The notes under the pieces were generated by a model that saw only the letters and a list, made by a program, of their open reading frames with translations, was not told where the DNA came from and did no database searches. Both the position numbers and the translations under genes were made by a program. Of a stretch of DNA of 64,000 nucleotides, positions 39,301 through 40,601 are shown piece after piece. Numbering within the stretch: position 1 is the first letter of the stretch; the number at the start of each line of letters is the position of its first letter. The stretch is from Urechidicola croceus. GTDB taxonomy: Bacteria > Bacteroidota > Bacteroidia > Flavobacteriales > Flavobacteriaceae. The stretch covers positions 186,001-250,000 of the forward strand of contig CAJIZG010000003.1 in the NCBI GenBank assembly GCA_905181865.1, read 5' to 3'.

Positions 39301-40143
39301 AGTCCTATTCCTTTAAGTGAATTAGCAACCATTCGATATGAGCGAGGTCCACAAGTTATAAAAAGTGAAGACACTTTTTTAGTGGGTTATGTGTTGTTTG
39401 ATAAATTAGATAGTTTTGCAGAAGTAAGCGTCGTTGAAAATGCTCAAACTTTAATTCAACAAAAAATTGATTCAGGCGAATTGATCGTACCAAAAGGCAT
39501 CAACTATAAATTTACAGGAACGTATGAAAATCAGTTAAGAGCAGAAGAAACTTTAGCGATGGTCGTTCCTTTAGCATTAGCTATTATCTTTTTGATATTG
39601 TATTTCCAATTCCGTTCGGTAGCAACATCCTTCATGGTATTTACAGGTATTGCAGTTGCCTTTTCAGGTGGTTTTATAATGATTTGGCTCTATGGTCAAG
39701 ATTGGTTTTTAAACTTCAATTTCTTTGGAGAAAACTTACGGGACTTATTCCAAATGCACACCATCAATTTAAGTGTAGCGGTTTGGGTTGGGTTTATTGC
39801 ATTATTCGGTATTGCAACCGATGACGGTGTGGTCATGGCAACCTATTTAACGCAAACCTTTAATCGAAATACTCCTGAAAGCAAAAAGGAAATAAGAGCG
39901 TCTATAGTAGAAGCAGGAGAAAAACGTATAAGACCCTGTTTAATGACAACTGCTACAACCATTTTAGCCTTATTACCAGTTTTAACATCAACAGGACTTG
40001 GAAGTGATATTATGATTCCAATGGCTATACCGAGTTTTGGAGGTATGTTAATCGCATTAATAACCTTATTTGTAGTGCCGGTATTATATAGCTGGAGGGC
40101 GGAGTTGAAAGTGAAAAGTGGTAAGCGAAAAATGAAAAAATGA
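36379..40143 (+). CDS. cusA: CusA/CzcA heavy-metal efflux RND transporter
   Basis: HME-RND length and motifs: [70 protein letters not shown]. Confidence 0.95.
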   Translation: [1254 protein letters not shown]

Positions 40144-40601
40144 AAAATGATGGGTAAGAGCATATTAAGAGATAAAAGTTACGATTTTGCTTTAAAAATT
40201 ATAAAGCTATCTCAATTTTTGGTTTCTGAAAAGAAAGAATATATTTTGAGTAAACAATTACTTCGAAGTGGTACCGCTATTGGCTCGCTAATTAGAGAAG
40301 CAGAGTTTGCTCAAAGTAAAGCTGATTTCATCCATAAAATGAGTATTTCTCTAAAAGAAGGTAACGAAACACTTTATTGGCTGGAGTTATTAAAAGATAG
40401 TTCTTTGATTTCAGTAGTAGAGTTTGATACTCTTCACAACAATTGTAAAGAGTTAGTTGCGATGTTGGTGAGCACAATAAAAACTTCAAAAAAATAATAT
40501 GAAAACTTTATCATACATAGCGCCCATTAATAAACAGTCCTTTTTATTTTCCAATTTTAACTTGGTAAACAAGCGAACTTTTCACTTTTTACTTTTCACT
40601 T
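40109..40601. mobile_element. Putative IVS-like cassette: four-helix-bundle ORF between 25-nt inverted-repeat arms
   Basis: Left arm 40109-40133 AAGTGAAAAGTGGTAAGCGAAAAAT; right arm 40577-40601 is the reverse complement of AAGTGAAAAGTAAAAAGTGAAAAGT (first 11 nt identical, then 8 of last 10). Confidence 0.5.
40147..40497 (+). CDS. Four-helix-bundle protein (23S rRNA intervening-sequence protein family)
   Basis: SYDFALKIIKLSQFL...LSKQLLRSGTAIGSLIREAEFAQSKADFIHKMSISLKEGNETLYWLELLKD is diagnostic of the family. Confidence 0.92.
   Translation: MMGKSILRDKSYDFALKIIKLSQFLVSEKKEYILSKQLLRSGTAIGSLIREAEFAQSKADFIHKMSISLKEGNETLYWLELLKDSSLISVVEFDTLHNNCKELVAMLVSTIKTSKK

Follow-up and report, generated by a model that had tools for sequence, protein, structure and literature searches.

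A putative transferable S23 gene cassette with inverted heptad arms at the cusA–tolC junction of Urechidicola croceus

Short inverted ends, an intergenic position and the lack of a recombinase of their own are characteristic of MITE and REP-type elements. In the intervening sequences (IVSs) of 23S rRNA, complementary ends enclose an S23 ORF, and RNase III cuts the insert out (PMC4990558). Such S23/IVP ORFs have been described in Coxiella, Leptospira and Brucella, and the Coxiella ORF is reported to be undergoing reductive evolution (PMC4990558). Direct repeats of the heptamer TAACTGA are found in Beggiatoaceae, Cyanobacteria and some Bacteroidetes (MacGregor 2015, PMC4679880). These arrays are intergenic, lie near start codons and occur sporadically across phyla, and for two Bacteroidetes there are close relatives with shorter, repeat-free spacers (PMC4679880); S23 is unmentioned in the text of that paper. 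The Avd proteins of diversity-generating retroelements (DGRs) are PF05635-like (PMC10053308). In Flavobacterium columnare, a four-helix-bundle gene is located between the guanylate kinase and nicotinate-nucleotide adenylyltransferase genes with tight spacing (PMC5524665). In the open literature searched, no link between S23 genes and heptad arms was found.

The window analyzed here is a stretch of 64,000 nt of the Urechidicola croceus genome. On its forward strand, a cusA-type RND metal-efflux transporter gene (36379–40143; PF00873, 9e-187) is followed by a gene of the S23, or 23S rRNA intervening-sequence-type, four-helix-bundle protein (40147–40497, 116 aa; PF05635, TIGR02436, PDB 2rld) and by a gene of a tolC-type outer-membrane efflux protein (40499–41827; PF02321, 1e-35). 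The left arm (40103–40146, forward strand; inverted-repeat search and Tandem Repeats Finder, TRF) consists of the 7–8-nt units AAAGTGA, AAAGTGG, TAAGCGA, AAAATGA and so on, and the right arm (40577–40608, forward strand; TRF, inverted- and direct-repeat searches) is an (ACTTTTC/T)n array, the inverted copy of the left-arm unit. The first-pass annotation had placed the ORF between inverted arms at 40109–40133 (AAGTGAAAAGTGGTAAGCGAAAAAT) and 40577–40601 (ACTTTTCACTTTTTACTTTTCACTT), and both the positions and the letters were correct. An independent repeat search lengthened the inverted pair to 29 nt with 79% complementarity (40103–40131 and 40579–40607). The array structure of the arms, with units of 7–8 nt, escaped that annotation; it is the rule for S23 genes.

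According to the TRF analysis, the left arm has a period of 8 (40128–40147), and the right arm has periods of 7 (40577–40601) and 14 (40576–40608). Over the whole 64 kb, period-7 and period-8 arrays were restricted to both arms. Three copies of the right-arm motif (40540–40565, 40585–40610 and 40630–40655) show an exact spacing of 45 nt; the first and third are weaker tandem copies of the unit, and the third falls within the tolC signal-peptide region. A genome-wide search for the arm pattern, proposed together with the initial reading, found the core 10-mer AGTGAAAAGT 12 times in the 3.42-Mb genome, three of them at this locus (15 occurrences for the reversed-pattern control), and the two-unit arm pattern only once, at this locus. 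The window arm pair scored 29, above all 840 control placements (maximum 28), and thus exceeds chance expectation. That the arms are generic AT-rich sequence was ruled out by the rarity of the 10-mer, the control placements and the restriction of the TRF arrays to the arms.

The final ~10 codons of cusA overlap the left arm and are encoded by its DNA, and the resulting tail is unlike that of relatives with empty junctions, which end in xQLKRAxK*. The left arm provides stop codons and directly adjoins the S23 start. The right arm lies inside an N-terminal extension of tolC and is translated there as FHFLLFTYN; the first ~36 TolC residues are missing in homologues at empty junctions, and the tblastn match of most relatives to TolC begins at aa ~34–40. 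No recombinase is encoded in the window cassette.

The S23 protein of the window matches PF05635 (8e-26, 90.7 bits, cut-off 33.8) and TIGR02436 (3e-30, 104.6 bits, cut-off 24) over its full length, in agreement with the four-helix-bundle identity first assigned to it. The nearest solved chain is that of PDB 2rld (one entry, five chains; E 1.2e-34), and the protein is probably pentameric, like its relatives. In same-slot orthologue pairs (a slot being defined by both neighboring genes), the median dN/dS of S23 genes was ~0.12, which indicates purifying selection and, therefore, a functional protein. To our knowledge, no function is known for S23 proteins. Matches were found in 115 of the 151 sampled Flavobacteriaceae genomes, with up to 16 per genome. 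A second S23 gene in the window's genome is decayed (five stops) and lies between the halves of metH (G000:C3:969249–969524); in other genera, the same metH slot is occupied by intact S23 cassettes. In addition, a DGR-like locus is present in this genome ~4 kb past the window end (G000:C3:253685–256393). It contains an Avd-type S23 relative (24 bits, below the cut-off) together with a fragment of ~158 aa that resembles reverse transcriptases and a protein with a repeated WSSTE...RAVRAF segment at its end, and looks truncated.

Comparison of the cusA–tolC junctions of 29 related genomes showed that 27 have no S23 gene, mostly with a stop/start overlap or a short gap, and two are filled. One filled junction (G002, L070) contains a decayed S23 gene behind a long array of AAGTGAN units; the other (G007, L060) contains an intact but different S23 gene with arms of the (GAAGTTG) type. 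An S23-family cassette with inverted ends inserted between cusA and tolC, as initially proposed, is supported, and among the relatives some junctions are empty and some are filled with arms. The comparison, which was meant also to define boundaries and duplications, located empty sites; the cassette boundaries and any target duplication are blurred by the divergence of the filled and empty junction pairs compared, and near-identical strains showed no insertion. One of the 27 junctions lacking the gene (G164, L068) has AAAGTGA-like inverted arms with no S23 ORF between them, perhaps left behind when the gene was lost. Among named genomes, the slot was also found occupied in Psychroserpens, Lacinutrix, Tenacibaculum, Cellulophaga, Winogradskyella, Polaribacter, Formosa, Aquimarina, Wenyingzhuangia, Maribacter, Dokdonia, Bizionia, Xanthomarina and others.

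On the CusA tree, in which the rows from the subfamily scan had been picked because they were filled, 16 changes of slot occupancy are needed, and well-supported branches force at least five of them; one example is Psychroserpens burtonensis, which is filled, next to its empty sister G017. Occupied and empty sites among relatives, the mark of a mobile element, are therefore both present. The closest match of the window S23 gene is that of Psychroserpens, with 82.6% nucleotide identity versus 76.8% for cusA and 77.7% for tolC, and the window cusA is closer to genera other than Psychroserpens. S23 similarity exceeds cusA similarity by more than 5 points in just 6 of 325 pairs. Inheritance within the same slot is common (29 thiolase loci and 27 cusA–tolC loci), so part of the flicker in occupancy may be loss.

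Inverted arms accompany S23 genes generally. The loci were selected by protein score with the flanks ignored, giving 110 from Flavobacteriaceae, 74 of the window subfamily and 28 from the phylum, and the arms were scored by comparing 200 nt upstream with the reverse complement of 200 nt downstream. In Flavobacteriaceae, the median own-arm score was 25 versus 17 both in 840 control placements at the same loci (p = 6e-37) and in cross-locus arm pairs (p = 1e-33); loci sharing a slot are related, so these locus-level p values overstate independence and a slot-level test is safer. In about one third of this set, the arms were no better than the 95th percentile of the control. In the subfamily, the median was 36 versus 16, and 85% of loci exceeded the 99th percentile of the control. 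The latter include loci from MAGs that carry the labels Deltaproteobacteria, Methylococcaceae, Calditrichota, Mariprofundaceae, Gemmataceae, Desulfobacterales and Gammaproteobacteria.

The repeat period is local. Autocorrelation at lags of 7, 14 and 21 was limited to ~80 nt on either side of the S23 ORF. Near S23, period-7 arrays were enriched 20-fold and period-8 arrays ~40-fold, and periods 9–11 were essentially absent. The two arms of a locus mostly agree in period (7/7 in 54 loci, 8/8 in 10, mixed in 10), as they do in the phylum set (7/7 in 15, 8/8 in six, mixed in none). YajC genes of Flavobacteriaceae showed neither a 7-nt period nor inverted arms, and this control, together with distant flanks, ruled out that the arms are ordinary spacer sequence. 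In loci L189, L195, L218 and L070, the arrays have grown to many near-perfect heptads, such as (TAGTGAA)n and (TAATTGA)n, which suggests ongoing slippage.

The 212 S23 loci occupy 97 slots in several phyla, and the arm unit varies from locus to locus. Own arms scored 27 versus 24.1 when the arms were swapped within a slot (p = 5.5e-6) and versus 16 for arms of different slots. When each slot was represented by a single locus, the similarity of the S23 proteins predicted that of the arms (r = 0.21, Mantel p ≤ 0.002), and flanks 325–400 nt away showed no correlation with the protein (r = −0.002). Judging from these sequence comparisons, either the protein and its arms would move together between slots or the protein would constrain the unit; under either alternative, the two would belong to one cassette.

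Genes of another family, PF13366 (GxxExxY, PDDEXK_3), also have locus-specific inverted arms in Flavobacteriaceae (L269–L298), with a median score of 27.5 versus 17 in the control (p = 6e-10; 50% above the 99th percentile of the control), and 23 of 26 are in operon positions. The proposal that inverted arms are specific to S23 is thereby rejected. The PF13366 arms show a weak, broad spacing of 8–13 nt between units like CTCTGTG and no 7-nt period. Of the three families tested (S23, PF13366 and YajC), only S23 has this period.

The S23 gene is co-directional with both neighbors in 200 of 208 loci; for gene trios of the subfamily loci in general, the baseline is itself high (149 of 187). The left-arm unit usually contains TGA, TAG or TAA and, since neither 7 nor 8 is divisible by three, one stop per unit recurs in every frame within 21 nt. 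Left arms closed all three frames in fractions of 0.67 and 0.74 of the Flavobacteriaceae and subfamily loci, respectively, versus 0.42 and 0.47 after shuffling; the phylum set showed a weak difference in the same direction (0.46 versus 0.38). For right arms, the corresponding values (0.27 and 0.28) were the same as those of shuffles. Read from this anatomy, the left arm would terminate the upstream gene in any frame, S23 would restart close by, and the right arm, not being stop-rich, could be translated through into the downstream gene; an operon would thus tolerate the insert with little damage. The window's left arm would close cusA after a short tail and lead to the S23 start, and the right arm would be translated within the hydrophobic N-terminal extension of TolC.

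We consider it rather probable that the segment 40103–40608 is a transferable S23 operon cassette, one of a widespread class with heptad arms as its DNA-level ends. The arms, built from units that are usually 7 nt and in some cases 8 nt long, may owe their likeness to recognition or copying instead of RNA pairing, and the cassette would occupy the gap between co-transcribed genes. S23 itself is a natural candidate for the protein that binds the arms.

The first-pass annotation had read the locus as an IVS-like element that moved from rRNA into mRNA, its arms possibly forming a stem of ~25 bp that would set the S23 ORF apart or serve as an RNase III site. In known IVSs, complementary ends surround an S23 ORF and RNase III removes the insert (PMC4990558), the orientation is nearly always along the operon, and the window arms do pair in a predicted RNA fold (z = −3.67). 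RNA duplex energies computed with 150-nt flanks were nearly as low in controls as at S23 loci. The mismatches of own arms in the 212 loci comprised 105 of the G.U type and 155 of the A.C type, the opposite of what tolerance by RNA pairing would give; the G.U fraction was 0.40, as compared with 0.60 when arms were crossed within a slot and 0.51 when they were crossed between slots. Selection for an RNA stem is thus disfavored, and arm mismatches without a preference for G.U point to similarity at the DNA level, through recognition of the ends or copying between the arms. The slight A.C excess in own arms was counted against the transferable-cassette reading as well. Arms swapped within a slot gave the reverse (743 A.C and 1101 G.U mismatches). 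The 23S motif was absent from all 212 loci. Rfam gave no match to any known RNA family. An origin by movement out of rRNA finds no trace in these loci, and operons are the usual home of S23 in this sample. Of the earlier reading, in silico pairing of the arms stands, and the IVS/RNase III explanation, as judged from the mismatches, is weakened as the reason for arm conservation; as an account of the locus, we regard the RNA element as unlikely.

A still less likely explanation is that S23 is a resident, non-mobile operon gene whose product regulates itself or its operon by binding the heptad arrays, as DNA or RNA, as operators. Co-variation of protein type and unit across slots, the strong purifying selection on S23 and the conservation of the thiolase, cusA–tolC and similar slots across genera would suit such a regulator, but the 97 slots with unrelated neighbors and their flickering occupancy fit it poorly. 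That slippage makes the arrays and template switching keeps functionless arms alike accords with the free expansion of tandem units (L189, L218 and L070) and the lack of a visible wobble constraint, yet this neutral origin is highly improbable given arrays 20–40 times enriched at S23 and absent at YajC, their match to S23 type across slots and the inverted arms of PF13366 genes, which have no 7-nt period.

The transferable cassette is apparently a kind of gene cassette undescribed so far, rather than a one-off insertion. Tentatively, and with rather less confidence than for the window segment itself, a broader class could be proposed: mobile cassettes without a recombinase, until now unrecognized, that are set by their architecture instead of a fixed end sequence, enter operon junctions by means of frame-independent stops and carry a single small ORF, of S23 or GxxExxY/PF13366, flanked by inverted arms that are specific to the locus and, in the S23 case, are 7–8-nt arrays; the rRNA IVSs would be a special case. 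The association of S23 with inverted 7-nt arrays, with the unit tracking protein type, gives a first concrete handle on S23, both on the DNA or RNA it binds and on the spread of its genes. It would join rRNA intervening sequences, unexplained heptamer repeats and the Avd proteins of DGRs, and it suggests how inserts are tolerated in operons, since a repeat with a length not divisible by three halts any frame.

As for the known systems, the cassette has in common with DGRs the homologous four-helix-bundle fold of Avd, but it is without a reverse transcriptase, template repeat and target gene; the neighbors of S23 here are cusA, tolC and metal-binding genes. Its ends are short and inverted, its position is intergenic and no recombinase lies inside, as in MITE and REP-type elements, but it contains a conserved protein gene and its ends are not fixed in sequence. 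The likeness to the S23-encoding IVSs of 23S rRNA (PMC4990558), already recognized in the first-pass annotation, holds for the architecture, namely, an S23 ORF inside complementary ends, patchy presence and insertion in a transcribed unit. In contrast to these IVSs, the cassette is found in operons and not in rRNA, its arms are arrays of a locus-variable 7–8-nt unit, there is no sign of selection for RNA pairing, and purifying selection on the S23 ORF is clear. Its site is the cusA–tolC junction instead of a helix of 23S or 16S rRNA, and the cassette therefore resembles an IVS and is not classed as one. The arrangement in F. columnare (PMC5524665) is consistent with the pattern of S23 operon cassettes. 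Like the TAACTGA repeats, the arms are intergenic arrays of 7-nt units near start codons that occur sporadically across phyla; unlike these repeats, which are direct, fixed in unit and without a cargo gene, those of the cassette are inverted and variable in unit, with S23 inside.
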